The notes under the pieces: model-generated
Database searches by the model: none
Told to the model about the DNA's origin: nothing
The model's input: the letters and a program-made list of their open reading frames with translations, nothing else
Part shown: positions 9,542-42,003 of the stretch, piece by piece
Position numbering within the stretch: position 1 is the first letter of the stretch
Layout of the letters: each line of letters opens with the position of its first letter
Source of the DNA: Crambe crambe
Lineage: Eukaryota; Porifera; Demospongiae; Poecilosclerida; Crambeidae
Assembly: GCA_963924555.1 (NCBI GenBank)
Contig: OZ004584.1
Span: forward strand, 8,315,753-8,379,752
DNA: 64,000 nt
Reading direction: 5' to 3'
Translations under genes and position numbers: made by a program

Positions 9542-10818
9542 CTACATTGATATATTTTTAATTACTGCTATTGTTTCTGCTAGATGGGTCATTTGTATCT
9601 TTTGCAGCACAGCAATCAGAGTTTCCCACGTCACGGGTTTCTTCCCACTCCCACTTAGCCACTCTTCAAATATTCTGTAGTTGATGTCACGTGCATTCTT
9701 GTTCAGTTCTTTTTCAATTGCTCTCATTCGGGCTCCAGTTTTATCTTCCAGGAGAAGCACTCCACATTCAAAATATTTTGATCCAATCTCCTCAGCCAAA
9801 TTCCCACAACATATGAGATCCATCATAGTTGGTGATTCACAAAGAGCTGTTAATTATTATGGTGGTGTCAAGTTTTGAAGAACACACACACATGTACATG
9901 TACACACACACACTACACATGCATCGACCCTTTACCCTATGAGTTACATCTTTCCCCTAGTGAGCTCTTCTCTGATCCCTCATGCATGGAGATGAAGTCC
10001 TCCCCATTTCTACGAGCTATGTAGCATTATACCTTGATCTAGTCCTTGCTGTGCCTGAGAGGTGTCAGTGGATGATGATGCCGACTATATAAATAAATGA
10101 ATTCATAGCTATATGTTCATACATGAATATTATCCTATACATACATCACTATTAGTGTCTGCCATTGATGAAACTCCAGAACTGGATGGTGGGACTTGCA
10201 TCTCAACTGTACGCATGCATCAATCTCAGAGTATAACTTGTGATTAGCTATAGCTAAATATATATATACCTGGGATCACGATATTGAAGTAGCACTCTCT
10301 GTCCAATCCTTTCACTTCAAACTTGATACAATTTGAATGTTGAGTTTCCTGATCCTTCACTTTACAAAGTGTCATTGACAACCTAGGAGGATAATCAGGA
10401 CACTTGGAAACTTCTTTATGCAGTGTTTCTGGTAGATGAATAACATTCTTTAGGATCTAAAAATGATGGTAAGACAGAGATGTGTCAAGCAAGCATATAT
10501 ACATGCACACAGGAACTAACAGTAGTAGGCTCCTTATCGAACACAATGTTCCATCCTGCACTTCCCTCAGTCACTGAAATGGTGACTTCGTTTGATGTCA
10601 GTTGAGCAGGAACAAAGGATGGTAAGCCCCAACCTTGCATTCCTTTCATTATTATAGAATCACAGTGCTATGGAAACAGAGGTGATGGAATTATAAACAG
10701 CTAAGACAATTCCATGAATATGACATACTGATGTGTACACTTCTTGTAAGAGACAGACACAGAATACTGCCAGTTTGTTGGATAAATTTCTGTAGAACCT
10801 TGCTGAGTAATAAACTTC
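9542..10818 (-). pseudogene. Gene X, 3' part: UPA-region exons and Death domain, cut off by the transposon
   Basis: Minus-strand exons, 5' to 3': the stranded part of a UPA-region exon (10818-10729), then 10667-10521, 10456-10270, 10206-10145, a 22-nt micro-exon (10054-10033) and the Death-domain exon 9846-9542. Each has a counterpart of the same phase in gene Y. The Death domain reads LAEEIGSKYFECG, then INYRIFEEWL and KKPVTWETLIAVLQK, with the helix pattern and conserved W expected of a DD. The part of the first exon that begins in GAAGTT abuts the transposon end at 10819. All frames are still open, so this half decayed little before or after the insertion. It cannot be joined to the 22.5-27.9 kb half without crossing the element. 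Confidence 0.85.
10813..10818. repeat. Target-site duplication, left copy (AACTTC)
   Basis: AACTTC directly precedes the element start TATGGAAGCC. The same six bases follow the other end (22521-22526). Gene Y has a single AACTTC at the matching place (37522-37527). Confidence 0.85.
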
Positions 10819-12085
10819 TATGGAAGCCGAGAAGGGCACTTTTTTTCAAGTTGAGAGTCGGTGAGTGGCGGCGCCAAGCGGCGACAGTCGGCGACAGTCG
10901 GCGACAGGCGGCGACAGGCGGCGACAGTCGGCGACAGGCGGCGACAGTCGGCGACAGGCGGCGACAGGCGGCGACAGTCGGCGACAGGCGGCGACAGTCG
11001 GCGACAGTCGGCGACAGGCGGCGACAGTGGCGGCGACAGGCGGCGACAGTGGCGGCGACAGGCGGCGACAGGCAGAGAATGGTAGGCGGCGACTGTCGGC
11101 GACTGTCGGCGACAGGCGGCAACAGGTCAGCGACAGTCGGCGACAGGCGGCGACAGGTTAGCGACTGTCGGCGACTGTCGGCGACAGGCGGCGACAGGTC
11201 AGCGACTATCGGCGACAGGCGGCGACAGGTCAGCAACTGTCGGCGACTGTCGGCAACTGTCGGCGACTGTCGGCAACTGTCGGCGACTGTCGGCGACAGG
11301 TCAGCGACTGTCGGCGACTGTCGGCGACTGTCGGCGACAGGCGGCGACAGGTCAGCGACTATCGGCGACAGGCGGCGACAGGTCAGCGACTGTCGGCGAC
11401 TGTCGGCAACTGTCGGCGACAGTCGGCGACAGTCGGCGACAGTCTGCGACAGTTCGGCGACAGTCGGCGACAGTCGGCGACAGTCGGCGACAGTCGGCGA
11501 CAGGCGGCGACAGGCGGCGACAGTCGGCGACTGTCGGCGACTGTCGGCGACAGGCGGCAACAGGTCAGCGACAGTCGGCGACAGGCGGCGACAGGTTAGC
11601 GACTGTCGGCGACTGTCGGCGACAGGCGGCGACAGGTCAGCGACTATCGGCGACAGGCGGCGACAGGTCAGCAACTGTCGGCGACTGTCGGCAACTGTCG
11701 GCGACTGTCGGCGACAGGTCAGCGACTGTCGGCGACAGGCGGCGACAGGTCAGCGACTATCGGCGACAGGCGGCGACAGGTCAGCGACTGTCGGCGACTG
11801 TCGGCAACTGTCGGCGACAGTCGGCGACAGTCGGCGACAGTCTGCGACAGTTCGGCGACAGTCGGCGACAGTCGGCGACAGTCGGCGACAGTCGGCGACA
11901 GTCGGCGACAGTCGGCGACAGTCGGCGACAGGCGGCGACAGGCGGCGACAGGCGGCGACAGGCGGCGACAGGCGGCGACAGTCGGCGACACTCGGCGACA
12001 GGCGGCGACAGGCGGCGACAGGCGGCGACAGGCGGCGACAGGCGGAGAGTGGCAGTGCATGTTAGGAAGGTAAAGGGTCGGCAAA
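10819..12085 (+). repeat. Left terminal inverted repeat with 10-bp minisatellite
   Basis: A unique terminus of about 45 bp is followed by roughly 118 units of a 10-bp repeat, GGCGACAGTC, with variants GGCGACAGGC and GGCGACTGTC and occasional TCAGCGAC or GCAAC units. A short non-repeat inner end (about 12043-12085, ...GGTAAAGGGTCGGCAAA) follows. It matches the right TIR in reverse complement but is about twice as long. Long open frames on both strands here (RRQSATVGD-type and its reverse) are an artefact of the 10-bp period. Confidence 0.9.
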
Positions 12086-12093
12086 GACATTAG

Positions 12094-12275
12094 TATGGAA
12101 GCCGAGAAGGGCAATTTCCGCGCAGAATCTCCGTAGTGAAAGTTCCGCACTGAAGACTCCGCACTGAAGGATCCGCACTGAAAAAGTTCCGCACTGAAGA
12201 TTCCGCACTGAAAAATTTCCGCACTGAAGAGATTCCGCACTGAAAAATCTCCCGCAGTGAAATCTCCGCAGGAAA
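12094..12275 (+). repeat. Internal second element terminus with CCGCACTGAA subterminal repeats
   Basis: TATGGAAGCCGAGAAGGGCA at 12094-12113 repeats the outer terminus exactly. What follows is not the GGCGACAG minisatellite but about nine copies of a short TTCCGCACTGAA-type repeat with variable spacing. This looks like the left end of a sister element that shares terminal bases but has different subterminal repeats. I found no matching right end inside the window. Confidence 0.7.
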
Positions 12276-12296
12276 AAATCATTAAATTTTGTCTCT

Positions 12297-12306
12297 TGCG
12301 CATGCG
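12297..12306. promoter_or_regulatory. NRF1-like palindrome upstream of integrase A
   Basis: TGCGCATGCG lies 72 bp before the integrase A start codon. The same kind of site lies just upstream of the intact kinase (15011) and of genes X (28031) and Y (42091). Confidence 0.5.
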
Positions 12307-12377
12307 TACTGCATACTGGTACGTACGTATGGTGTGTGCTATCCTTTTTAACGCCCAACCACGTGGAACTTGTGAAC

Positions 12378-14226
12378 ATGGACGGTAGGTAATATTTCCT
12401 ATGATAATGGTTTATTAACAACTTTAAAAAGATATTTTAGTCGAGCTATTTGAAAGTTGGAGGCCATATAAAGTGTTACGTGAAATATTGAAGGCCAAGT
12501 ATGGCATCAATAAAAGGTATAATATATTATAGTTTGCTAGTTATTATAGTTTGCTAGAGCCTACTTTCTAGCTTAGCTACTAGCTACATCTTTTCAGTGT
12601 AAGATGGCTGAAGTATCAGTTTAAAAGATTAGGCTTAAAGAGAAGAAAGCCTGACCCTCCAGAGCAGCTGATAAAAAGAATAATTCAGGTCTATAATACT
12701 GTAGCTATAATATAACAGCATAATTATTGCTAGTTTGTCTTTTGAATTGTAGGATGAACTGAAAACTTCCAACTCACTATTAGGCTACAGAGCTATGTGG
12801 AAGCTTTTAAGAGATAAGTATGGATTTGAAGCTAGGAGGTGTGTCAAGTACTGAGCTTAACTAGTATAATTAGTAGCTAACTAGATGCTTTAGGGACACA
12901 GTAATGAAAATTTTGAAATCAGTGGATGCAATTGGCAATGAGCGAAGAAAGAAAAATAAGCTTAAACGAAGGATATACAAGAGTAAAGTAACTTTTTGTT
13001 ATTGACTATGATATTATCAGTAGCTATTAGCTATAATAATACTTAGGGACCAAATCACATCTGGCACATCGATGGGTATGATAAATTGACACCTTATGGA
13101 GTCACTATTCATGGCTGCATTGACGGGTATGTGCATGATATCACTGGTTTATGGTGCAGCTTAACGTTTTTAATTGTGGCAGATTTTCAAGGAAAATAAT
13201 GTGGCTGAAGGTCGCACCTTCAAACAGCAATCCAAAACAAATTTGCTACTATTTTTTGGATAAATTAGAAGAATTATCTGGTATAGAAATCATGCTAGCA
13301 TGTAGTAAGCTAGAGAGAGAACTTAATAATTATTGTGATTACTTTCTGTATAGGGTGTCCAGCTGTTGTAAGGTCTGATTATGGCACTGAAAACTGTAGT
13401 ATAGCTGCAGTGCAAATTGGCCTACGGTATCATCATGATGATGATTTAGCAGGAGGAAAAAGCTACATCTACGGGCCATCAAAGCATAATATTGTAAACT
13501 ATTTTGAATAATTAATAGCTGTGATTAGCTACCAAAATATATACCGGTAATTATAGAGAATAGAAGGGTGGTGGTCTCAGCTAAGAAGAGGAAAAACAGA
13601 GTGGTGGATCAAGTTGTTCAAAGTACATAGCTTCAGTTTCTAGTGTTAGCTATATTTACTATTCTTGCATGCAGACTCTTGAAGAAGATGGAGAACTAGA
13701 CCGCAGAGACCCTTTTCAAAGGTGCAGCTGCATGTGGATACATAGCTAATACCGATATGATGTATCATTATGTACAGGTATTGCTTACTCTATTCAAGTG
13801 TACCGCTAATCAAGAGAGAATTAGCTGAATTTATTGAATACTGGAACTCTCACTTGATTCGCAAGAATAAAATGAGCCAATCACCTAGCGGTGTTCCTAA
13901 TGAAATGCATGAACTTCCTTCTTTATATGGTAATTAGCTAACAACATAATTATAACGAAATAAGCCTTTTGTATCACCTAGGTGCATCTGACCAGCTAAA
14001 ACTGTTCGATAGTAGACTTTGGATAGAGGCAATGACCCATGAAAGTGAACCACCTACTGAATTCTTACCAAATGGGTTTGAGGAGTGGGCAGATTATATT
14101 CTACGCCATGATTTCAACATAACAAGAAATGCTATTGCTGCTCCTATTGTTCGAGACATTTACCGCTACCTTAGCCACCAGGACCCCCCTTCACTTTCAA
14201 GCAATTCATCATCAGAGACTGAGTAA
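12378..14226 (+). CDS. Integrase A: DDE integrase/transposase of the element (12 exons, 393 aa)
   Basis: Exons: 12378-12384, 12441-12516, 12598-12688, 12753-12838, 12894-12987, 13047-13126, 13183-13280, 13354-13493, 13557-13622, 13675-13721, 13778-13929 and 13982-14226. They total 1182 nt (393 codons plus stop) with all phases matching. The N-terminal third is basic and helical (LKRRKPDPPEQL), probably DNA-binding. The catalytic core has HIDGYDKL (first D), RSDYGTEN (second D) and RIEGWW (E), so the triad is present. After the core comes a helical region, a conserved LWIEAM segment and an acidic Ser-rich end. It should cut and join the TATGGAAGCC ends in the nucleus. It looks functional. The gene converges on the truncated kinase at 14281. 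Confidence 0.85.
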
Positions 14227-14280
14227 TGGCAATGTTGTAAAGATATAGAATAACTATAGTCACAGCTAAAATTAATGTCT

Positions 14281-14925
14281 TCAAGGATTCATCGTATCAC
14301 CATCAAAATAACAGAACATTGAAACCACCTGAAATGAAATAATGTGCATGTAGCTATAGCTAGGTAAGACTCCAAATAGTACAGCATACCTCTGCAGAAG
14401 AGGGTCTCTTACTATGGCAACGTAGACATTCTTTCATAATATCATAGAAATTTACGCAATCTTTGTCATCCACTTCACACCTTGGATCTTGGATTTTCTT
14501 AAACCCATCGAAACAGCTTATATCATCTTGAACATGATCAATCTGTGGGCAAATGCTATGCTAATAAACATGTACTGCCAGTAATCATACTATAGTACTC
14601 ACTAATTTCTTATCAGCTCTGCTATCATCGTATGCATGCTGTGAGGTAAATGTCTCCAGCATCACCTTAGTGGATAATAACAGTATGAACAGTTAAGTGA
14701 AGTTCTATGATGTTCTTAAGGGAACTTACAATACCATAGCTATATACATCACTTCTATCACTGAAATGCCCACATGTTACCTCTGAAGGAAAGTACCCCT
14801 CAGTGTGGACTATTGATTTTAGCTAGGTTAGAACTATACTAGAACAGTCACTAGCTAGCTCTTCAAAGCTTACTTCTCTAAAGTCCTTTCCAAATCTGAG
14901 CACAATTTCAAAAATCAAGCAATGC
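14281..14925 (-). pseudogene. Truncated IRAK-like kinase, C-terminal lobe only
   Basis: Minus-strand exons encode a partial activation segment with HTEGYFPSEV, then FSDRSDVYSYGI (the conserved D and G of subdomain IX), HVQDDI, and ECLRCHSKRPSSAE near the end. A last exon stops at 14281. The order and splice points match the intact kinase at 15045-18336 (HTEGYFP vs RTEGYYP, SDRSDVYS in both), but the sequence is clearly divergent. Homology stops near 14925, around the DFG region, so the ATP-binding lobe and catalytic loop are missing. With integrase A it forms one convergent integrase-kinase pair. Confidence 0.8.
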
Positions 14926-15010
14926 GCATGCGTAGCAGTCGGACGCCTGATGACCAATTTTTGCAAGATTCCCTAAAACCTCTGTAGTGTCTACATCACC
15001 CGTAAATGTG

Positions 15011-15020
15011 GCGCATGCGC
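15011..15020. promoter_or_regulatory. NRF1-like palindrome at the kinase promoter
   Basis: GCGCATGCGC is a perfect palindrome 25 bp before the first plausible start codon (15045). A second near-copy, TGCGCATGCG, is at 14923-14932, at the edge of the truncated kinase. Confidence 0.5.
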
Positions 15021-15044
15021 AAGCAGCCTACCAATTCCACGAGA

Positions 15045-18000
15045 ATGGAATCCAGGATTCAGATGTCTAAATCATTTAGAGCTATCGGTAGCTCCGATAT
15101 GATCATTGAATTGAAGAAAATCATCCACCACCTGCAAGGAATATCTACAGGGAGAGTAAGTCTAGCCAGGACTTTAGCCAACAATTCATTATAGGTACTG
15201 TTTTCAATGAAGATTTCATCACAACTTCACAATAGATGGCTGAAGGGAAACTGTAGAACTAAACGTATGTATGTATATGTACGTATGTATGTATGTATGT
15301 ATGTACATATGTATTGCTTACGATTTACTATTAGAGGAACTGGCACTTCGTTCACACTGCATATACTGTATAAGCAACGAAACTACTTTAGCATTCATGG
15401 AAGAACTTGCAAAGGAGTTTTGCAAAGATAGCATGAAGGTAAAGCATGCAGAATTGCTTACCAATATCATTTGTGTATAAACAGACATATAGTTATGTAA
15501 TGAGTGTTCTCATGCCAGAAGCTGTGCGGATACTAGTAAGAAACAAGTATAAGATAAATGATGAAGAGGTAAAATATGAGTATTATTACAGCCCTCATAT
15601 ATAGTTTATATAATAATAGGCTATGGCTGTGATGTTTACCTTTGTGCCATCCTCTGCATCTAGCTCTAATGATGCTGATAGCAAAGATGGTGAGACATTC
15701 ATAAAATCAACCACATGCATGCAGCTAGTTAGCATAATTAACTACGTGAATTGTTCGCTGAGTCAGCAATATTTCTGCTCCTGAGCTAGCTACGGCGGAT
15801 CGAGATAGCTAATGGCTTCTATAAAGAAAGCAAGACTATTGAAATTAAATGATGAAATGCAACATCTTATTACAGATTTGCTTGGAGAGAAGTCAGCAAG
15901 TACTACAGGAATACCAGGTAGTTAGTGACTGCAAAATTAGATTTTTTAGCTAAGTCCATGGTTTTAGATTTAAGTCCAAGGGACATTATTCAGCGAGGAA
16001 AGTTGTTACACAAATCAATGAAAAAAGGTACTAAAAGTTGTGGAAGCAGCAACCTAATCCCAGTAAGTGAATCATATTTTATCTCCGTAGTTTGCTATAG
16101 GTATAGCTTTTGCATTTTTTTCTCTCCAGATAACAGTATCATTAATGATTAAAACAAAAAAAGGATTGTTTGCAAAGGATGGCACTCCAGTGGAATTTAC
16201 CGTTGATCGTTATTCAACATACAATGATTTGATGTCTAAGTGTAGTGATGCCTTGGCCATGCCTCCAATAGCCACTGGCATGAACCGATCTCTGTTCACT
16301 TCAGGAGGGGCTTTAATCAAAGAAAATCCTGACTGGATCTTAGACATATACTTAAAACAAGTGAAAAAAGGCTCCATCAAAATTGGAATTGGAGATATGA
16401 AGGTTAGAAGGTGCATATGGTATGGTATATAACCTCAGAGGAATGATGGAAGGTGCATGCTTGTACTCTATAGGTTTCTATAGCAGAGAAAACCAGAATG
16501 AGTGTCACTTCATTTCCAAGTGAGCTCACATTTTTCATTAGTTTATTACTACTGATCCCAGCATTGATACAGGTAGTGGCTATTCTACTGATGCAGCTAT
16601 GCATGGTACTTCAAAAGGCTTTAGCGTGGTATCATCAGCTGACAATCCTCTTACCATTGTATCTTCTGAAGACAGTGATGAAGATGTTTTCCTCCCACCC
16701 CGTAAAAAGAAATATATACCACCTCCAATTCATCGAGAGTCTAGACAACCAATATTGAAGCCAGTAGCAAGTTTGTTCTAATTATAACACTTTATGATGG
16801 ATATTAGCTATGAGTATAAATTTCTTATCACCAGATCAGTGTATGGAGTTTTGCGCGACGGAACTAGCAGAGGCTACCAGGAATTATTGCAGAAAAACTA
16901 TACTTGGCAAGGGTGGGTATGGAGTAGTATACAAGGGAACGCTTCGTTATAGTGCTGTTGCCATTAAAGTGCTAACTCCAGTGAGTATAATACAATTATT
17001 GTTTCTATCATGTTCTAACTTGTCTTTATAATTATAGGAAGGTAAGGCTGCTCTTTTACGAGAGAAGACAGTCGATCAGTTTCAGGCCGAAGTTTCAGCC
17101 TTGAACCGGTACTAACAATGTGTGCAGTGCTGTTTGCAAATTGTAGTCATCATTAACTTCTTTAATAATAGTTTCCGGCACCCTAATATTTTACAGCTCT
17201 TCGGGTATTGTTCAAAACCTACTGCTATGGTCTTTGAATTTATGACCAATGGAAGTCTTTACCAAAAACTCCATGAGGTATTTTTTTAATGTACAAATTA
17301 GGTGTTATTTATAACTATAGCTTTTAGGAGAGAAATGTGGCACTGACATGGGAGAGGCGGAAGTCTATCATTTTAGATTCCTGTCGGGGAATGGTGTATT
17401 TGCACACTGCTACCCCTCCTACAGTTCACCAGGATATCAAATCGTTAATGAATAAGTTTTAATTTGACTATAATTTTATAATCATATTACTACAGGGCTA
17501 ATATATTATTGGATGAAACTTATAAAGCTAAATTAGGAGATTTTGGATTTGCCATCGAGATGCCACATGTATCTGGTGGTCGAACTATGTTTACTTCTAA
17601 TTTTACCGTCAGAACAGAAGGCTACTACCCCCCAGAAATTAGCATGGGCAAATATTCTGATCGTAGTGATGTCTATTCATTTGGAGTGGCAAGTTTTTAA
17701 ACTATTTTTTTAAACTAGATATGTTTACGGAGGTAGAGCCATTGCTAATAGGTAGTGTGGGAATAGGTGGGTACATTAGTTGTATGGTTTATACAACTAC
17801 ATGGATTGTGTATAGGAATAGGACATGTATCAGGTTTCTTGGTCTAGCTAAACAGTGAAAAATATGCGTACTACTAGTTACTGCATGATATAGTCGTTGC
17901 CTATCATGCAAAGGGAATAATTCATGAGTCGTGTATAATTATGGTGATATTGTAGGTAGTGCTTGAAGTTTGGAGTGGCTTGAAGGCATATGACCCTAAG

Positions 18001-18336
18001 CGAAGTGATCCCAAACTTGTAAGATCTTTGACATGTGAACATTTCCTTTTGTTATTGGCTAAAAATTCTTAAGGTTGAATACGTTCAAGATGATATGAAA
18101 GATGATGAGGCTTTTCAGAAAATATTTGATGGTTTCCTCAAAAAACCCATGCATATTGAAGAAACAGCTGGAAAATATTTTAATGTTGTGTCTGCCTGTC
18201 TTAAGAAACACAGCACCAGGCCACCAGCTGTTGAGGTCAGTATAGATTCAAGCACTTTGAGTACAGAGGAAGTGGGTTTCTACATACTAAATTTAAATAT
18301 CCTATATTATTGCAGGTATTGAAATTACTAGAATGA
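15045..18336 (+). CDS. IRAK/Pelle-like protein kinase carried by the transposon
   Basis: Multi-exon gene; the kinase domain (about 16831-18336) is well supported and the N-terminal exons less so. I start it at 15045 because of the NRF1-like site just upstream. A later ATG at 15812 (MASIKKARLLKLND) is the alternative. The N-terminal part is unrecognised; a middle segment (16138-16400) may be a small beta-rich domain, followed by an acidic/basic linker. The kinase has the glycine loop GKGGYGVVYKG, VAIK lysine, FRHPNI, catalytic loop HQDIKSANILLDE, GDFGFA, SDRSDVYSFG and a C-lobe ending VLKLLE. Lysine, catalytic Asp, Asn and DFG are all present, so it is probably active. The usual HRD arginine is Gln. 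In animals this family relays Toll/IL-1 signals; here it rides on a mobile element. Confidence 0.75.
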
Positions 18337-19211
18337 ACAAACTGATCATTTCTCATCTTTGCTTTATTTTTAGTTATCAGTCCATTCTCCATGAATGTTT
18401 CACTGACCCATAACCTCCACCATGTAACTGCATCCATGCACTTCTGTATAATGTGCTTTTTGCTGCCTCATGCTCAGCATGTAGTAAATGTAGGCATATA
18501 GCATATCACTAATTTCTTTTTGTATAGGTAATACAGTAGTTTGCAGAACAGTTGTCATGCATCAGGCAGGGATAGGTGGTGGCTTTGAAGTATTTGTGGC
18601 TGGGGAACAATAAAATGTTTTCATAGCCCTATTGTTCTTAGCCACTAGCTACTGCAGAGCCGCTGCCTATCTCTGCCTTATGCATGACAACTGTTCTGCA
18701 AACTACTGTAGTTATAAATCCATACTGCCTATTTTACAGCTGACTGGTAATTGTTTACATAGGTACATGCAAGTCTAGAAGGTAACTATGTAACTAGTTG
18801 TATCTAAGCAACCTATTGACGTCTTAGTAAGGTAACTATGCAGCTGCGCGTGCAGTAATAACCATAACCTTCAATTAGACCTGTACTTCACACCAACTGT
18901 CCAGTCTTTGAAATGGCCACAAAGTGTACCTACAGCTGATGGCTTTCCTTTGATGTAGGCTATTTTGCATGTATGCTGCTGAGCTATATTTAAGAAGCTT
19001 CATGATCCTAGCAATACTCTTAGCCATCTGCTGCTGAGGTATGCATGTGTACAGTAGTAGGTATAAAGTTATTAGTGAACTCAATCTTATCAAATTAATT
19101 TGACTGGCCACAAAGTATTACAACACAATATATATCGCATGCATTCTTTCACAGAAAATGTATTTAATCTTGGGTGTAATTAACTAAATACAAATATATA
19201 TCTTTACAACA
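18337..19211. other. Spacer between convergent kinase and integrase B
   Basis: Apart from a small TA-flanked inverted-repeat element (18534-18708) I see no gene. The segment separates the 3' ends of the intact kinase (+) and integrase B (-) and probably holds both polyadenylation sites. Confidence 0.5.
18534..18708. mobile_element. 175-bp MITE with TA target duplication
   Basis: Inverted ends of about 28 bp begin CAGTAGTTTGCAGAACAGTT and are flanked by TA on both sides, the pattern of a Tc1/mariner-type miniature element. It is nested in the larger transposon and has no coding capacity. Confidence 0.75.
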
Positions 19212-21126
19212 TTATGGTGTTATATCTTCTTGTGTAAGACCGATTTCATCTAAAACTGCATCAGACCAGTCCTTGAATTCATCAGAAAAAAATTTCCCAG
19301 GTGACTCAGATTCATTTATCATCGCATTTATCCACACTAATGAATCTATTGGTTTTGAATAATCTGTTGTTCCTATTAAGAGTATTATGGTAACTCTATA
19401 GCTATAAATAAATCTATGATTTTGGCTAACCATGTAATGATGGATAGGTATACAGCTCATTTGGAACACCACATGGGGAATCAGACAATCTATTTTGTCT
19501 TATAAGGTGAGAGTTCCAATTCTTGACAAATTCAGATAAATCTTGAAGTAAAGGGAAGTACATAGTGTATGCCAGACAGCTCCTATTATCATATTATGTC
19601 TTACTGTGATGCTTACACTTGATTAAACTTACATATGGAATCCATCATGAGAATTAAAATGCCCTTCATCAGAGAGAGACTATAATATACATGTAATAAT
19701 GAATATAAGGTTTTTAATTATTGAATGATTAATTACTTTGAAGAGATCAATCCACCAATGTGTCTTTCTTCTTCTTAATTGGGACCACCAGGCTTCAATT
19801 CTCTGTGGAGTTATATTCAGTATAGCTATACACGTGCATGTAGCTAGCTATTATGTTCCTTACAATGTTATGTTTGGAAGGCCCATATATAAAGCTTTTT
19901 TCCCTCGCCATTGAATCATCATGGTAATACCTAAATGCTATGTGTATAGCAGCTAAATTTGAATTTTCAGTTCCATAATCACATCTAAGCACAGATGGAC
20001 ATGCTATCAAGAATAATTATAATAACAGTAATTATACAAAATTAGCATTCATGTTGCATAGCTATACCTGCTAACTTTTCTACCCTCTCCAAGTAGTACC
20101 TTGCAATTATTTTAGGATTGTGATTGGACGGGGCTAGCTGAAGCCACAATATTTTCCTAGAATAACTGTAATGACATTTTAGTAGCTGGTAGCTATTTAT
20201 TTATCATCACAGCTAGCATACCCATCGATGCACCCATGTAAAGTGAAACCGAAAGGGCTCAATTTATCATAACCATCAATGTGCCAGAGGAAGTTAGGTC
20301 CCTATGCAGGTGATAATGCTAGTCAATAATATATGCATCTGCCAATTAATGTACCTTTGATCTATAAATTCTTCTCTTCAGTCTTTTTTTTTCGACTTCT
20401 TTGACAGCCAGTTGGGTCCTCTTCCTTCATAAGTTTCATTAAAGTGTCCCTAATTAAGTAACAGTTATACCTAGAGGGCTTTACAGATATATTGCCTGAT
20501 GCATTAGGACAAGACAAACTGTATTGGGTTTCCTAACCACATCCTAGGTAATATGAATAGTATATCGCTCCTCCCTTATTGGCTCAGTCTATATAAACAA
20601 CAAGTCTGCTGTATGGCATATTAGAAGTAGGGTACTTTGATCTTAACCAGCAACTTAGCTCATTGAATAATGTATCAGTCATTACATACCTTCGAACAAG
20701 GAGATGATACTTTGATCTTAAATGTTGCCACATTAAGCGATATCCAAGTAAGCTGTTTGATGTTGCTAGTTCAATCTAGCAAGATATGGCCTGCTCATTA
20801 AATTATTGTGCTTCCTACTTGCAATCAAAATACCTTCAATATGGAACGGATATGGGATTCTGGGGGATCAGGCTGTCTTCTTGATAAATTAAGACGTTTA
20901 AACTGATTCTTCAACCATTTCAAGCTGGAATTTCAATAACTTCATACCTTAATTGGCATAAGCTACTAACAGTTACCTTTTGATAACTCCATGTCTCTCT
21001 TTTAAAATAGCTAGTAGTACCTTATAAGGTCTCCATGTATAAAATAACTCGATCAGAAGGTCTTATATTATGCCAAAACTACATGTATAAAAAAATTTTA
21101 GTTCCATAATTTAGCTTACCGTCCAT
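19212..21126 (-). CDS. Integrase B: second, divergent DDE integrase, with one frameshift
   Basis: The exon-by-exon layout matches integrase A, starting with the same 7-nt first exon (ATG at 21126, then donor GTAAGC) and ending EDITP-stop. Motifs: HIDGYDKL near 20270, RCDYGTEN near 19975 and RIEAWW near 19795, so the DDE triad is intact. Proteins A and B are clearly different throughout, so this is not a recent copy. In the fifth exon a run of nine A (20384-20392 as T on the plus strand) puts the frame off by one relative to A and leads to an early stop. This may be inactivation or a homopolymer sequencing error. If real, only integrase A is functional. Confidence 0.75.
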
Positions 21127-21908
21127 CTTCCTGATGAGATTACGTGATGACTGATGAGGTTAACTGCTGTCCGGACGCACGCGCGTACGTAATAATGATC
21201 TCGCGCGCGCATACCTGATCTGAATTTCCTCCCTCATGCAGTCTCACCTGATCCCTGTTTTAATTAGCATATGCCCTTTGGGCTTTACATTGCTAAGATT
21301 GATATTGATCTTGATATTGATAATGCATGCATGCATGTGGTTCGTCTAAGGCGCTTATACCAGCCAAAGACATAGCTGACAAGGGGAACCTTCGTCCTAA
21401 CAACTACACTATGGCAACACTATAGTGGCTAGGAAATTCTGGGGCGAGTGCGCAGAGAACAAACTAATTAAAGTAATGAACAAAGTGACAAAATGAAATA
21501 AACAAAATGAAAAGCCCAAGGGCTACAAGGAAAATAATGATTTAGCTATTTACAATAAATAACAATGAAATACAAAACAAGGGGGAGGGTTGCCATAAAG
21601 AGTCAGGAGTAGTAAAGCAGCTAGGTCTCGGAAGGAGTGCCAGTAGTTCACCCAGTTATCATATCCCCTACAACCACATAACATTCAGAGCATATCATAT
21701 ACGTTAGTCCTTCACTACTTATCATAGTTATAGCTATTCATTCATTATCTGTGGGGTCTGCGTGAACAAGTACCTTACCAACTCCCTAGCTATGAGCCAA
21801 TATAGGAGTAACTATGTAGCTAGCTATTATTATTATGTAGAAAATGCAAGTTTTTAAGTATGAGAGAAGTGAGTTGATGGTCAAGTTGCCAAAATAGTAA
21901 TAATAACT
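21127..21908. other. Inner flank of the right end, with a possible small insertion
   Basis: No gene is visible. CpG-containing alternating purine-pyrimidine stretches (about 21177-21215) may serve as the integrase B promoter region. Between about 21271 and 21530 the two ends carry GCCCTTTGGGCTTTACATT and, inverted, a near match (CCCAAGGGCT), suggesting a roughly 260-bp inverted-repeat insertion; this is tentative. Confidence 0.4.
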
Positions 21909-22520
21909 TTTGCCGACCCTTTACCTTCCTAACATGCACTGCCACTCTCTGCCACTCTCCGCCTGTCGCCGACTGTCGCCGACTGTCGCCCCTGTCGCCG
22001 CCTGTCGCCGACAGTCGCCGACAGTCGCCGACAGTCGCTGACCTGTCTCCGCCTGTCGCCGACTGTCGCCGACTGTCGCCCCTGTCGCCGCCTGTCGCCG
22101 ACAGTCGCCGACAGTCGCCGACAGTCGCTGACCTGTCGCCGACAGTCGCCGACAGTTGCCGACAGTCGCCGACAGTTGCTGACCTGTCGCCGCCTGTCGC
22201 CGACAGTCGCCGACAGTCGCCGACAGTCGCTAACCTGTCGCCGCCTGTCGCCGACTGTCGCTGACCTGTTGCCGCCTGTCGCCGACAGTCGCCGACAGTC
22301 GCCGCCTACCATTCTCTGCCTGTCGCCGCCTGTCGCCGCCACTGTCGCCGCCTGTCGCCGACTGTCGCCGACTGTCGCCGCCTGTCGCCGACTGTCGCCG
22401 CCTGTCGCCGACTGTCGCCGCCTGTCGCAGCCTGTCGCCGACTGTCGCCGACTGTCGCCGCTTGGCGCCGCCACTCACCGACTCTCAACTTGAAAAAAAG
22501 TGCCCTTCTCGGCTTCCATA
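21909..22520 (-). repeat. Right terminal inverted repeat with 10-bp minisatellite
   Basis: Reverse complement of the left TIR: inner end ...TTTGCCGACCCTTTACC, about 52 ten-base units (CGCCGACAGT and variants), then the unique terminus ending GGCTTCCATA at 22520. It is about half the length of the left TIR, the difference being repeat number. AACTTC follows at once. Confidence 0.9.
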
Positions 22521-22526
22521 AACTTC
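22521..22526. repeat. Target-site duplication, right copy (AACTTC)
   Basis: AACTTC directly follows the terminal CCATA. With the copy at 10813-10818 it brackets the element. Confidence 0.85.
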
Positions 22527-25500: not shown

Positions 25501-27933
25501 ATATATTTGTAGCCTTGATCAGCTGCGAGGTGGAGGGCAGTACTACCATCACTGCTCTTGCACATTGGATCACACTTCTTCTTAAGAGTGAGGTACATTA
25601 TGATAGGTAGCCATCCATGAACTGCTGCTGTATGCAGTGGAGAATACTTGTATTCATTCAGACAACATGGATTCCATCCTTGCTCATCGACTAAGTACTC
25701 AATAATCTTCAAATGTCCCTTGCTTGCTGCTAAGTGAATTAGTGCACTGCGACTATTTTCATCAATTAGCAATGGGTGTTTCTTTGAGTCAAGAAAAAAT
25801 TGAAGAATTTCTTTGTAGCCATAATCAACTACATGGAAGAGAAGTGTATAACCCAACTTGCTTTTGGATAATGGGTCACTTTTTTTTTCCAGAGTGAGGT
25901 ATTGTATAATGGCTAGATGTTCATTACAAGCTGCCATGTGTAACGGAGTCACTCCATCTGCATCCAATATAGATGGATCACATTCCAGCTCATCTACTAA
26001 GTACTTCAAAATAGGCAAATGACCATATCTTGCAGCATGATGTACAGCTGACTGACCGAATTCATCTGTAATACTATTGCAGTGTAACTCAGTTATAATG
26101 AATTTAGCAATATCTAATCGACCAGTCTTAATACCGACATGGAGAAGGATATCCTTACTATACAACTTGCTTGCCTTCTCTAAAGTGAGATACTTGAGGA
26201 CCGATAAGTGACCATATTCTGCAGCTAAATAAATAGGATAAAGATTTATCTCTGTCTCTTTAAATATCACGTCCAACAAATTATATTGCTCCATGTTGTC
26301 TACTAAAAGTTTTACCACTTCAATGTGACCATGGATACAAGCATACTGTAACGGAGTCATATCAAATTCATCTTGATAAACAGCTTCAATACCCAGATCA
26401 AGTAGATATTGTACTACGGATAGATGACCCTTAGCAGCAGCTAAATGAAGGGATGTCCAACCATTTACTCCTGGTCTTCGTGGATTACATTCTAGTTCTG
26501 TAGCAAAGTATTTTACCAGATGCAAATGACCATTCAAGGCAGCACAGTCCAGAGCAGTGTAACCGGACTCGTCTTTGTCCATTGGATTATAACCTCCTTG
26601 TTCTATCATATCTTTGACACCTTTCAGATCTCCTATACTTGCCATCTCATGTATGAGAGAGCCAATGCTAAATGGTGGCAACTGGACTGCTTTATCAAGC
26701 ATTTGCAAGAAAGGTTCCTTAAGATCCCTCACACGACTCTAAAGGAATAACAAATTAGTATCAATGAGAACCAAAGAGGTAGTTTCCTGTCCCATGCACA
26801 TACATTTATTTTTGTTCAGTATAATAATTAATTTTAATACCTTGATGTAATCACTTTGAGCACTAGAAGTAGATGTCATCCCAGCTGTGTTCGTATCAAC
26901 AGAATGAACATTAGCATGAGTCATTATGCCTGAATCAGAGTCCATCTCTTCAGCTCTGTTGTTGGTGCTCAATTTAACATCAGTGCAAGCATTGGTATAT
27001 ATAATTTTGCTTGATTCTATCCTCCCAGCTATGTTTGCTATTGTGGAATGGAGATCAGTACTCTCATTCATCAAGCCTGTCATAATTAAATCATTCTTAG
27101 TACTATTTTTTGTAGAGGCTACGACTAGGGCATGGACTATTAACTATATTCAGTTAGAGGCTTTCACAAAAAATTTTCCAAGCAGGGCAAGCACAAGCAA
27201 GTTTCACTGAAACTCAAAGTGCACTTTTTAGCATCACACCCTCAGACCCCTCCCCTTAGCACAAGGAAGTTTCACTGAAACTCAAGGCACACTTTAAATA
27301 GATATTAGCATCACACCCTCAGACCCCTCCCCCTAAGCATCATTTCTAACGTTGAGTATCAATAGTAGCCCTCCAAAAAAGTCAGAATTTCTGAAGTTAC
27401 CCTGTTAAAAGCCTTTCTCCACTTTATGTAGCTATAATTAAACACTTACTTCCATATGGCCCAGGATTTAATTCCACATCTCCTGCCACTAAGAGTAGTA
27501 GAAAAGATAACCAGCAAGAGAAATGTGCCTTGAAGATATTAAATAAGTTGAAGATCCAGTTTGTTGTCTCAATAGAAGTAGTTTTAAGCTTCAATATTTG
27601 ATCCAGAAAAGGGCATGTTACCATACCGGCACACTTTTGATAAGAAAGTGATATTTTAGAGTTATTACTGGGTTTCGCTGGTACCATTGGATGGAAAATA
27701 GTACTGCTTGGGCCACTCTCCCTCTTCCTTCTTCTCCTCCTTCCCCAGAAGGAGTGGATGGCATAGATGAGAAGCACAAAGCCAAAGACAGCCAGTCCTG
27801 ATTGAGGGAGGGACATAGTCCTCTCCATCTGTAGACTGGTGGTGAGGGGACGTCTCATCTCCCACTGAACCTGCTTCCACAAGTAGCGACCAACAAGTTT
27901 CCCATGCGAGACCAAACGAGATCTTCGTGACAT
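22521..27933 (-). pseudogene. Gene X, 5' part: TM leader with 2A, about 35 ankyrin repeats, ZU5
   Basis: Minus-strand exons: 27933-27450, 27076-26841, 26738-23156, 23092-22607, then the start of a UPA-region exon (22531-22521) cut by the transposon. Exon 1 encodes a basic N-terminus, a TM segment (SGLAVFGFVLLIYAIHSFW) followed by RRRRRKR, and a second hydrophobic stretch ending in GDVELNPGP at residues 151-159, a 2A motif. Exon 2 is a Ser/Thr-rich linker. The 1194-codon exon 3 is nearly all ankyrin repeats (TPLHLAAANGHL type). Exon 4 is a ZU5 domain (GMGICLSIPDNSVEESL to HFCIVKLGRK). Summing these with the 3' exons and removing the insert gives an uninterrupted frame of 1869 codons, so the insertion is the only obvious lesion. 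A truncated product without UPA/DD could still be made. Confidence 0.85.
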
Positions 27934-36224: not shown

Positions 36225-39200
36225 TTAGCTCTTTGATACTTTTTTAATTACTGCTATTGTTTCTGCTAGTTGGGTCATTTGGATCTTTTGCAGCACAGCA
36301 ATCAGAGTTCCCCAAGTCACGGGTTTCTTCCCACTCCCACTTAGCCACTCCTCAAATATTCTGTAGTTGATGTCACGTGCATTCCTGTTCAGTTCTTTTC
36401 CAATTGCTCTCATTCGGGCTCCATTTTTATCTTCCAGGAGAAACACTCCACATTCAAAATAGTTTGATCCGATCTCCTCAGCCAAATTCATTTCACCACA
36501 CCATAGGAGATCCATCATAGTTGGTGGTTTGTAAAGAGCTGTTAATATAGTGATGTTTTGACTCACACACATTAACCATCATGCACACATGCATCAACTC
36601 TATGAGCTACATGCATCTTTCCCCTATACATATAGCTAGTGAGCTCTTCAATCCCTCATGCATACATGGAGATGAAGTACTTCCTATATTTCTATAACAA
36701 GGAACTGCATAGCGATATACCTTGATCTAGTCCTTGCTGAACCTGAGAGGTATCAGTGGATGATGATGATGATGCTGACTATATAAATAAATTAATTCAT
36801 AGCTGCATGTTCATACATGAATATTATTCTATACATACATCACTATTAGTGTCTGCCATTGATGAAACTCCAGAACTGGATGGTGGGACTTGTACCTCAA
36901 CTGTATACACAATTTTTCATGCATCAATCTTGGAGTATAACTATAGTGATCATGCATGGATCTGTATATACCTGGGATCACGATGTTGAAGTAACACTCT
37001 CTGTCCAATCCTTTCACTTCAAACTTGATACAATTTGATGAGTGTTGAGTTCCCTGATCCTCCACTTTACAAAGTGTTATTGACAACCTAGGAGGATAAT
37101 CCGGACACTTGGAAACCTTTTTATGCAGTGTTTCCGGTAGGTGAATATCACTATTTGAGATCTGGAATGATGCATGCATATAGATAGAGATGTGTCACAG
37201 TATAGGAAGCATACATGCATGCAGCTAGAAATAGAAACTAACAATAGTAGGCTCCTTATCGAAAAAAACGCTCCATCCTGCACTTCCCTCAGTCACTGAA
37301 ATGGTGACTTTATCTGCTGTCAGTTGAGCAGTAAAAGTAGATAACTCGCAATCTTCCATTCTTTTCATTATTACAGAATCACAGTGCTATAGATTGAAGC
37401 AGAGAATTAAACAGCTAAGCATTATCATGCATATATGACGTACTGATGTGTACACTTCTTGTAAGAGACAGACACAGAATACTGCCTTGGATAAAAATCT
37501 GTAGAACCTTGCTGAGTAATAAACTTCATTTTCTGAAATATCATTTAGCAATTAATTTTAATATACACAAAATTTAGTGCATGCATAGATCTATACCTTT
37601 GGGCTTCTTTGTTGCTGGAGAATGTGATGCCCTTCTTCTCTTTCGACCTAACTTCACGATGCAGAAATGTCTGAGGGTGATTTCTCCTACATGGTCACCA
37701 GGTTCGAATGTTCCCTTAGGCTCCTCTATTTCCTTGAAGATATACACAGGACCATCCTTCCGTTTTTCTGGAGTAGAGCTGGCAGAGAGAAAAACCATCT
37801 CACCACAGTCTGATGTACTCTCTAGATAAGCATAGTGATGGATCCGAAGTGCTATATCTTTTTGAAAGTTCACTTTTCTGTTGCACTTGATGAGATAAGC
37901 AGGACTTGCTGACACATAATCTTCTGGTAAAAGAAAAGGTCCCCTCAGGCATGGAAAAATCAACAAAGTCAAAGATTCCTCAACAGAGTTATCAGGAATT
38001 GAAAGACGAATACCCATGCCTTCAATAATAGCTCCTTCGGGTGTCACATCTTGGATGATTGGTTTCTGATGGAAAACTATTCCAGGAGATTTCGAACGAC
38101 ACTCTAAAAATCAAAAAAGTGGGTAAAATACAACATTCATGCAATTCATGCACTTCTATAATAGACTTTACCTTTAAGTTCGTGTTCTTGAATAGAGTAT
38201 TTCTCTAAAAATTCTCCTGCAGGCAAAGGTGAGCACTTCAGTTCCTGGACATAAAACTTAACTACCTCCTTTTGGCCCTCACTGGTAGCCCAGAAGATGG
38301 GTGTCTTATGATGAGAGTCTTCACAGAGAGGGTCGCAACCCTTTTCAAGAGTAAGGTAGGAGACGACCTCTAAATGTCCGTTGAGAGAAGCAAGATGAAG
38401 AGGAGTGACTTGACCTGATGTTCCTAGTGATGGATCGAAAGAGTGTTCATCGATGAAGTATTTCACTACTTCTAAATGACCCATCATGGCGGCACAATGC
38501 AAACACGTGTAGTCATATCTGAGCCTGGAGCATGGATCATTGACTATTTCATCGATAAGGAATTTAATATTTTCTAATTTCCCTCCATAAGCAGCATAGT
38601 GAATAGGAAGACACTTTAAGACATCATGGAGGGATTTTTTATCATGGTCTGAGATAGCATTAGTGAGATATTTGATAACCTTTATGTCTCCATTTTGAGC
38701 AGCAAGATGAAGAGGTGTTGCATTTGCAGCATCTCTGACATATGGATCACAGTGTAAATCTTCCACTAAAAACTTCACAATATCATAGTGTCCACCATTC
38801 GCAGCAAAGTGGATTGGAGTAAGACCCATTCCATCTCCCTTGATAGCTGCTACTCGATTAATATCCCCCTCTTTCCCAAGAGTGAGGTACTGTACGATAG
38901 ATAGATGTCCCTCCATTGCAGCTACATGGATAAGGTTTTGACCATTCTTGCCACAGATATCAGGGGGACAATTCAAATCCTTGATGAAAAAGCGAATAAT
39001 GTCCAAGTTGTTGAATGCAGCTGCTAGATGAAGGGGAGTATGACCATGGATATTTTCATGATATGGATCACATCCTTTGTCCAGAGTGAGGTATTTTACA
39101 ATCGACAAATGTCCGTTACCTGCAGCTAGATGTAGTGCTGTCTGCTCGTATTTATCCACATCATGTGGACTGAATTTTTGTTCATCTAGCAAGTACTTGA

Positions 39201-42003
39201 CTATGTCATAGAGTCCATGAATTGCAGCTATGTGAAGAGCATTACGATCATCATTGTCGAGGATTTCATGAGCATTTCTCAACTTCGAGATCAAAAATTT
39301 GATAACATCTATGTGACCTTTTAAAAATGCGGCATGAAGGGGAGTTGAACCACTGATGTTCTTGCATAATACATCACAATTTTTGTCCAGAGTGAGATAT
39401 TGTACAATGGATAAATGTCCATTAGCTGCAGCTAGGAGTAATGGAGTCTGTTTATATTTATCCAAACTGCTTGGATTACACTGTCGTTCATCAACCAAAT
39501 ACTTGATGATATTGAGATGTCCCTTTATTGCAGCTGCATGGATTGCATCACGACCTTTCTTGTTCAATATTGTACACAGACTTTTAAAATTCATAGCAAA
39601 ATATTGGACAACTTCTAATTGGCCGTTCTGAGCTGCAAGGTGGAAGGGAGTACTACCATCAATATTCCCTTTCATTGGATCACATTGTTTGTTTCGAATG
39701 AGGTAGTCTACAACAGGTAGATGTCCATTCGCTGCAGCTAGATATAATGGAGTCTGTTCATATTTATCCAGAACATATGGACTATATCCTCCTTCATCAA
39801 TTAAGTACATGACAATATTAGAATGTCCCTTACTTGCTGCAACATGAAGTGCATTCCTTCCATTCTTATCAACTGGAATACTGTGAGAAATGGACATCAA
39901 AAATGGAATAATAAACATTTGTCCATATTCAGCTGCAAGGTGTAGGGGAGTACTGCCATTAATATTCTTGCACATTGGATCACACAGTTTCCTATTAATA
40001 AGGTATATTACAACACGTATATGTCTATTTGCTGCAGCGAGATGAAGTAGAGTTTGTTCATACTTATCCAAGGAACAAGGATTACATCCCTGTTCTTCAA
40101 TCAAGTAATGCATGATATTTAAATGTCCTCGAATAGCTGCTATCTGAATAGGACTGCGGCCATCTCCATTGACTATGTCAGGAGAACATTTTAGATTTAA
40201 GATCACGAATTTAACAACATCAATGTGGCCATGGAATACTGCAAGGTGGAGCATATTACTGCCAGTAGAGTTTTTATTTGCAGGATCACACCCTTTGTCC
40301 AGGGAAAGATACTTCACAATAGTTAGGTGACCGTTGGCTGCAGCTAATAATACAGGACTATTCTTGAGGTTATCCAAACAAAATGGACTGTGTTTTTTAT
40401 CATCAATCAAATACTTCAAAATATCTAGACGTCCTTCAATAGCTGCTATATGAATTGGATTGTGACCATCTTCATCTGCAGACAGAGCACATCCCAGTTT
40501 ATCGATAAAAAATTTCAGGATATCTAAGCATCCTTGCTTCACTGCATGATGTAATACTGACTGACCGACTTCATCTTCATCCGTATAGTCACAATGCAAT
40601 TCAGTTATCAAAAACTTAACAATATCTAATTTACCAGTTTTGATTGCAGCACATAATAGTTCACTATTATTGATCTTTGCTATATTGTAGGTCATCCTTG
40701 CTTTAAGATATTCAATGGTGGCCATATCCCCACCTACAATAGCTAATGTCAAAGGATGCTGATAGATTTCTGTCCCTCTAAAAACTTCATCCAATGGTAC
40801 ATACTCTGCCATTTTTCTTACCAAAAGTTTAACCACATCGATACAACCCATTCTGCAGGCATACTGCAATGGAGTGAGATTATAATCATCATGACGAAGA
40901 GGTTCAACACCTTGATCCAGAAGGTACTGTACAATAGATACCTGGCCCCAGTAAGCCGCAATATGAAGGGGTGTACAATTTTTAAATCCTTTAATATCAG
41001 GATTAGTGCACAATTCCTTGACAAAGTACTTAACTATATGCAAATGACCATTTCTAGCTGCACAGTCCAGAGCAGTGAAACCGTGCATTCTGTCCAATGG
41101 ACTTTTACCATCTTTTATCATACTTTTAACACCTTCCAAATCACCTTCGCTTGCCATTTGATGTAGGAGAGAGTCGAGAACCAAATGTTCCTTCCCAAGA
41201 CCCCTTCTACCACATAATCTAATCTGTAGAATGTACACAGTCAACAGTATGAAAATTCAATTATATTTTCCATACCTCTATACGCTTAGACACAGTTTGG
41301 GCACAAGATAATTCCCCAGCTGTTTTTATAGCTGTGTTTGTGTGAGTACCTATTCCAGAATCTGAGCCAACTATCAAAATATTAATTGTCAGATAAATAC
41401 ACGATTATTAGCCTTATTTCAAACTTACTCATGTCATCACTAGGTAAAACCCCCTTCACTGGAGCTAATGACATCATCTCTGTATTGATCCCTGTATTAC
41501 GAAAAGTTCATTTGAGTTGGTAAAGGGTCAGCAGTTACCCTACACATACATGCGCAGCTAGCTAGCTTACCATACGTGTATGGTCCTGGATTTAGTTCTA
41601 CGTCCCCTGACAGTAATAACTGTAGAAAAGTCGACCAGATGGAAATGTATGCTTTAAATGAGGTGAAGATCCAGTATACACCACGCTGGGTTGTGTTATC
41701 TACACTCTCCTTTATAGGCTTAGGTACTTCAAAATCACAACATGGCTTCACTCTTGGATGGCAAAGAGGCTGGGTCAGGTATGGGCCCCTCTCCCTCCTC
41801 CTCCCCCTTCCCCAGAAGGAGTGGATGGCATAGAGGAGGAGCACAAAGCCAAAGACAGCCAGTCCTGATTGAGGGAGGGACATGGTCCTCTCCATCTGTA
41901 GACTGGTGGTGAGGGGACGTCTCATCTCCCACTGAACCTGCTTCCATAAGTAGCGACCAACAAGTCTCCCATGCGAGACGAAAGCTCGAGATCTTTGTGA
42001 CAT
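36225..42003 (-). CDS. Gene Y: TM leader/2A/ankyrin-ZU5-UPA-Death domain protein (11 exons, about 1656 aa)
   Basis: Exons: 42003-41571, 41491-41429, 41370-41276, 41223-38172, 38103-37597, 37532-37444, 37386-37243, 37161-36972, 36900-36839, 36742-36721 and 36538-36225. They total 4971 nt in one frame. Residues 1-45 are basic. A TM segment (about 46-64) is followed by GRGRRRER, and a second hydrophobic stretch (about 110-132) leads into SGDVELNPGP. The 2A break would fall after G140. Then come an acidic linker, about 30 ankyrin repeats, ZU5 (GMGIRLSIPDNSVEESL to LRHFCIVKLGRK), a UPA-like region over four exons, and a Death domain (MNLAEEIGSNYF, IFEEWLSGSGKK, PVTWGTLIAVLQK). ZU5-UPA-DD is the supramodule of ankyrins, UNC5 and PIDD. 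I infer a death-fold signalling adaptor; its ligand is unknown. An upstream ATG at 42048 is possible, but 42003 is the one shared with gene X. Confidence 0.88.

Follow-up and report, generated by a model that had tools for sequence, protein, structure and literature searches.

A Pelle/IRAK-related kinase gene in a clade of IS3EU-like DNA transposons from the sponge Crambe crambe

Descriptions of DNA transposons usually name a transposase and, beyond it, no more than a DNA-binding helper. IS3EU elements are described with TA..TA termini, 6-bp target-site duplications and an integrase-like DDE transposase, and the fungal families among them end in TAYGG..CCRTA (PMC10045372, PMC12730594). In the fungal TET+ IS3EU families an alpha-kinase gene is reported to stand opposite to the transposase, with a TET/JBP gene between both genes (PMC12730594). 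The IS3EU-derived Styx of Zymoseptoria carries additional coding sequences and an ancestor with two proteins was proposed for it; in the available text a protein kinase is named only among the duplicated genes near Styx copies and not as a gene of Styx itself (PMC10853768). Here we analyse a stretch of 64,000 nucleotides from Crambe crambe (the window; contig OZ004584.1, C6:8315753-8379752 in our numbering of contigs) together with the 143-Mb genome of this sponge. Positions 10819-22520 of the window are occupied by a DNA transposon, and our data strongly support the claim of an earlier, preliminary description of this DNA that such an element encodes a Pelle/IRAK-related kinase. This kinase is almost certainly an integral gene of a whole transposon clade.

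The element is an IS3EU-like DNA transposon: it shares with IS3EU the TATGG..CCATA ends, the 6-bp duplication and the integrase-like DDE transposase. As the ends, the length of the duplication and the type of transposase agree with the available descriptions, it is probably not a categorically new transposon. It differs from IS3EU by its Pelle/IRAK-related kinase gene and, in the window copy, by ends that lead into long minisatellites of about 10 bp. With the fungal TET+ families it shares a kinase gene opposite to the transposase, the two genes being convergent at at least 26 loci here. Contrastingly, the fungal gene codes for an alpha-kinase (PF02816), whereas the sponge kinase matches PF00069 and PF07714 with no PF02816 among the matches listed; this comparison covers the kinase type and the orientation of the genes only. 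The alpha-kinases of the sponge genome itself (seven matches on C20, C9 and C17) do not stand at any listed transposase as judged by eye, which fits separate recruitment. The preliminary description knew of no cut-and-paste element with a kinase of this sort. An IRAK/Pelle-type kinase in a DNA transposon was indeed not found in the literature searched (titles and starts of abstracts as listed, in two cases 30 of 35 and 20 of 49 records, and term searches, with Repbase reports and most subscription papers outside this scope), but the fungal IS3EU alpha-kinase is a precedent (PMC12730594). The IS3EU-like clade with an element-owned Pelle/IRAK-type kinase appears to be new, while IS3EU and fungal IS3EU with an alpha-kinase are known.

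The segment 10819-22520 is a genuine 11.7-kb insertion and its ends are exact, because inverted ends, a duplication of AACTTC and a gap-free match at an empty site, a putative exon, coincide; these were the three facts from which the boundaries had been drawn initially, and all of them held. Both ends read TATGGAAGCCGAGAAGGGCACTTTTTTTCAAGTTGAGAGTCGGTG in inverted orientation with 45 of the 45 compared bases identical, and complementarity of the arms (10819-10998 and 22341-22520) remains at 99% across 180 nt. When the two flanks were joined with one AACTTC between them, the junction was spanned at 37303-37733 with 77% identity over all 428 nt and the alignment crosses the insertion junction without a gap. 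Apart from the element's own two flanks this was the only place with a junction-spanning match, the 17 other matches being partial. The features which define the insertion are the following.

10813..10818, no strand: target-site duplication AACTTC, left copy
10819..12093, plus strand: left terminal inverted repeat (TIR) of the outer element, mostly a minisatellite of about 10 bp (10867-12045)
21959..22520, minus strand: right TIR with the matching minisatellite
22521..22526, no strand: target-site duplication AACTTC, right copy, present as a single copy at the empty paralogous site
37303..37733 (C6:8353055-8353485), no strand: uninserted paralogous site with one AACTTC, matched by the joined flanks

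The element ends are repetitive in the genome: TATGGAAGCC occurs 447 times compared to 39 times for its reversed control, and the 19-base element end with at most one mismatch was found 130 times compared to none for the control. The minisatellites adjoin both ends of the outer element with 115 copies at 10867-12045 and 49 copies at 21959-22460, their unit being common to both sides and inverted. Short CTCCGCAAG-type repeats take the equivalent position in L042, a copy from a lineage of elements of about 6 kb.

The argument that the kinase belongs to the transposon rests on the arrangement of both genes across the genome. The searches listed the best 150 of 170 kinase matches and the best 150 of 188 transposase matches, which merged into at least 119 kinase and at least 97 transposase loci, and 100 of the 130 element ends; the counts of pairs below refer to these listed matches and ends. 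In at least 23 cases a kinase locus and a transposase face each other convergently at a distance of no more than 5 kb, and the sole non-convergent relation is that of the window kinase to the transposase of a second element nested in the outer one. Random placement in 1000 trials produced on average 0.8 convergent pairs and never more than 5, compared to the 23 observed. The pairing was confined to closer relatives, with identity limits that were chosen after the lists had been seen: with an identity of 45% or more, 23 of 34 kinase loci were paired, and below it none of 85; for the transposase, with the limit at 42%, the figures are 24 of 37 loci and none of the remaining 60. The kinase of the nested element, used as a query, added three convergent pairs on C11, C16 and C17, which brings the number to at least 26 loci, all of them tail-to-tail. 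Inward-facing TIR pairs closer than 13 kb were counted as well. There are 28 of them and 20 exceed 5 kb, including two that arise from the nesting in the window, so that 19 are distinct. Full-length copies devoid of the kinase had been named beforehand as the observation that would speak against the proposal; mostly the opposite was found, a kinase match being present in 17 of these 19 pairs.

A DNA search with the window kinase gene identified nine dispersed places with 65-68% identity over part of the gene. These nine loci, of a sister lineage (L039-L047), all hold a transposase match together with a kinase match, and eight of them have both TIRs. Exact 6-bp duplications flank L040, L042, L043 and L046, one of 7 bp flanks L044 and one with five of six bases flanks L047; L039 and L045 have no target-site duplication, and for L041 no right end was found. 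Eight of the copies are 98.2-99.9% identical over about 6 kb with gaps excluded, an indirect sign of what may be current mobility, and in eight of the nine loci the kinase is free of stops in all eight tested stretches. The kinase had been regarded as cargo at first. That view had to be abandoned: the at least 26 convergent loci strongly support a gene inherited within the transposon clade and not a captured one.

The genes of the outer element are arranged as follows (NLS, nuclear localization signal; TPaseB, its transposase).

15045..18336, plus strand: kinase gene, open, 17 exons and 632 amino acids in a hand-made model
16130..16402, plus strand: exon of the N-terminal domain, in this genome present only in these elements
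16573..16770, plus strand: linker exon with the basic, NLS-like stretch PPRKKKY, the NLS being read by eye
16835..18336, plus strand: exons of the kinase domain with GKGGYG, VAIK, HQDIKSAN, DFG and PPE
19212..20301, minus strand: exons of TPaseB, tail-to-tail with the 632-amino-acid kinase gene

In the kinase model, a prediction spliced by hand, all acceptors are AG and all donors GT with the exception of one GC, while the upstream exons of TPaseB may reach about 21130 as judged by eye. Residues 360-627 form a protein kinase domain (PF07714, 2.7e-38; PF00069, 5.1e-38). The initial statement that the kinase is intact and has all catalytic residues is correct regarding the open frame, the VAIK lysine, the catalytic aspartate and DFG, but the arginine of HRD is replaced by glutamine. 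The resulting HQD is common to the window kinase, to its counterparts in L042 and L055 (the latter from a third lineage) and to the protein sequences P0001, P0004, P0005 and P0008. No Death domain is among the Pfam matches of the model with E up to 5, a range in which the HMMER filters drop most matches above about 0.1. The exon of the N-terminal domain has 21 matches in the genome and all 21 were assigned by eye to loci that carry this type of kinase; in the protein database no relative was obtained at E up to 10 (65 candidates). At this search sensitivity and in this genome the domain is, as far as sequences tell, private to these elements. Basic stretches ahead of the kinase domain were seen by eye in the window protein, L042 and P0001. 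Residues 49-104 (window 15337-15689) give a sub-threshold RTC4-like Pfam match with E 5.1e-3 for the whole protein and 1.6e-4 for a 71-amino-acid piece (22.2 bits, the cut-off being 23.7; 12.7 bits in L042), and L042 contains a counterpart of these residues with 41% identity. This could be a hint of an RTC4-like part in the N-terminus; the search of the genome with this family gave one sub-threshold match, which lies elsewhere than the element kinase.

Comparison of the lineages indicates that the kinase protein has been maintained. Between the window kinase and L042 the amino acid identity is 65.0% over 260 codons, with proportions of synonymous (pS) and nonsynonymous (pN) differences of 0.84 and 0.25; between the window kinase and L055 it is 54.7% over 212 codons with pS 0.80 and pN 0.29. 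The ratio of nonsynonymous to synonymous substitution rates (dN/dS) is not quoted between lineages because dS is saturated, and the near-identical copies have too few changes to judge selection. The protein has been retained in spite of saturation at the silent sites, and the kinase has therefore been under purifying selection. A gene kept for so long suggests that phosphorylation matters to the element.

The kinase domain has its best matches in PDB among a mixture of plant receptor-like kinases (best 2.8e-43) and IRAK4 (E about 2e-41). The tree of 28 rows, which is unrooted and was drawn with a midpoint root, unites three element kinases with P0001, P0004, P0005 and P0008 in one clade (100/99), and this clade joins the animal IRAK/Pelle kinases against plant and other kinases (91/97), standing beside the animal IRAK/Pelle group and not within it. 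P0001 pairs with the L055 lineage (100/99) and therefore this lineage is present in another assembly. The label of an IRAK-like or Toll-pathway kinase is thus justified with respect to the kinship of the catalytic domain, which is what the element kinase shares with IRAK/Pelle, but not beyond it: the element kinase forms a clade of its own and is distinguished by HQD in place of HRD, by the private N-terminal domain and by the absence of a Death domain from the listed matches. Because of the latter, the kinase does not appear to be an IRAK by architecture.

About 87 kb to the left of the window, at C6 8121890-8228502, eight clustered kinase matches were observed with open frames of 430-535 amino acids and 36-39% identity to the element kinase.

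We consider it likely that the elements form a transposon clade whose long members combine a transposase with an opposed Pelle/IRAK-related kinase kept by selection, the role of the kinase being left open. Several observations weigh against this. The kinase of L045 has one stop. Two of the 19 long TIR pairs have no kinase match among those listed, the pair at C3:5115514-5122162 showing neither gene and the pair at C6:4570198-4582102 the transposase only. Neither gene is present in the 8 short pairs among the 28 (0.4-3.0 kb), as would be expected of non-autonomous derivatives, and therefore the kinase is not needed in cis. Among the 34 kinase loci at or above the limit of 45% identity, eleven have no listed transposase within 5 kb, although two of them are inside TIR pairs. 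For the lineage to which the window copy belongs, the search gave no further complete member: the three closest relatives of its kinase (C6:4067461-4068821, C3:711156-711620 and C3:1782572-1784460) are fragments with 81-96% DNA identity, and the seven loci around them (L048-L054) showed a single TIR, that of L051, and no match to the transposase. With a mean predicted local distance difference test score (pLDDT) of 47.6 the fold prediction for the N-terminal domain cannot be used, and the basic stretch was read as a putative NLS by eye only. Finally, the support comes from comparisons of sequence.

The retention of the kinase in copy after copy suggests that the element uses phosphorylation in its own life cycle, and we infer that the role of the kinase lies there. 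The kinase would have entered the clade before the lineages split and would have been kept by selection because it was helpful to the element. The transposase presumably excises the element and inserts it at 6-bp targets. The kinase could be expressed from the strand opposite to the transposase and then enter the nucleus, as the basic stretches seen by eye may allow, where its substrate might be the transposase or else a factor of the host that serves silencing, DNA repair or the cell cycle; phosphorylation of this kind might license transposition or ease silencing. A nuclear and transposition-related role of the kinase is the likeliest of those considered and is proposed here tentatively. Alpha-kinases are a family different from IRAK. 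As they are reported in fungal IS3EU, an element's own need is likelier than interference with Toll signalling, and together the two cases may represent a shared need that was met twice by different kinases. It could even be that IS3EU-type transposons recruited opposite-facing kinases at least twice independently, an alpha-kinase in fungi and a Pelle/IRAK-type kinase in sponges, because phosphorylation licenses their transposition. They would then make up a kinase-assisted class of cut-and-paste elements, and the kinase of sponges would be a mobile branch of the animal IRAK/Pelle radiation that is owned by the element; we put this forward with considerable reserve. In any case, a census of kinases in such genomes will take in genes that are borne by elements, here at no fewer than 26 loci.

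One could argue that the kinase feeds into the innate immunity of the host, namely Toll/IL-1R-like signalling, and dampens or mis-wires the response to by-products of transposition such as cytosolic DNA. Its domain resembles IRAK4 about as closely as it resembles plant receptor-like kinases and groups with the animal IRAK/Pelle kinases against those of plants, which speaks for such a function. However, no Death domain is listed, these elements are the sole place in this genome where the N-terminal domain was found, and the kinase of another family reported in fungal IS3EU points to the element's need and not to Toll signalling. Thus we regard the immune function as improbable. Control of dose, with the kinase repressing the transposase at high copy number like some transposon-encoded repressors, has little probability as well: a separate and co-inherited second gene fits a regulator, but the near-identity of eight copies points to bursts in the recent past.

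DNA transposons are well known to capture genes, and a host kinase that was captured by chance and is useless to the element would agree with the damaged kinase of L045 and with the fragmentary state of the closest relatives of the window lineage. Contrastingly, the amino acids are kept while silent sites are saturated, the gene order is the same at no fewer than 26 loci and the N-terminal domain is private. Incidental capture of cargo is therefore unlikely, and a passenger without any use to its carrier very much so. The idea that a host kinase gene, older than the element, was trapped between two independent insertions is suggested by the three TIR motifs and two transposases of the window, but it is ruled out by AACTTC at the outer ends, by the empty paralogous site and by dispersed, near-identical sister-lineage elements with the same gene set, most of them with duplications of their own.

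The presence of two integrases in the window is explained by a truncated relative which is nested in the outer element at 12094. The nested features are listed here (TPaseA, its transposase; MITE, miniature inverted-repeat transposable element).

12094..14819, plus strand: nested, truncated second element of the same kind with its own TATGGAAGCC left end, its transposase and kinase parts matching elements on C21, C11, C17 and C16
13047..14226, plus strand: exons of TPaseA with integrase core PF24764 (E 7.7e-35) and D, D, E present
14250..14819, minus strand: 3' portion of a kinase gene that belongs to the nested element itself and faces TPaseA tail-to-tail
14824..14986, no strand: MITE-like repeat of about 163 bp with at least 36 dispersed matches

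DDE integrases between the TIRs were noted at the outset and both do have the D, D and E residues, spaced by 58 and 40 residues, but the second integrase belongs to the nested truncated element. A single element with two transposases was considered and ruled out, as the third end (TATGGAAGCC) at 12094 inside the outer element marks two nested elements. The outer copy therefore holds what is left of another member of its clade, a remnant of 2.7 kb whose right end was not found. The TPaseA exons have matches on C17, C21, C16 and C11 that are mostly 85-96% identical (one is 68%), and directly beside these relatives, on C21, C11, C17 and C16, are copies of the nested kinase fragment with 98-100% identity. 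The repeat at 14824-14986 has at least 36 dispersed matches with 88-99% identity (40 of 207 candidates were scored). When 12094-14986 is subtracted, 8809 bp remain for the outer element, which is then similar to the 8.2-8.3-kb elements on C8, C13 and C16. The closest named transposase relative is from the sponge Dysidea avara (54%), followed by the record Em0022g461a (43%), whose prefix we take to denote the sponge Ephydatia muelleri.

Two further arrangements of the element ends were observed. The region of C11 at about 1.59-3.84 Mb contains 22 plus-strand and 3 minus-strand ends among those listed; the plus-strand ends are about 39-400 kb apart and constitute an unexplained series, mostly solitary and in one orientation. 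At C3 9098860-9126310 eight plus-strand TATGGAAGCC motifs follow each other with alternating spacing of about 2.2-2.6 and 5.7-6.5 kb, which looks like a tandemly repeated unit with two TATGGAAGCC motifs.

Elsewhere in the window, two paralogous open reading frames (ORFs) on the minus strand, upstream of ankyrin-repeat ORFs, have near their ends the motif GDVELNPGP (27457-27480 and 41581-41604), which we take to be a 2A-like translational-skipping motif.

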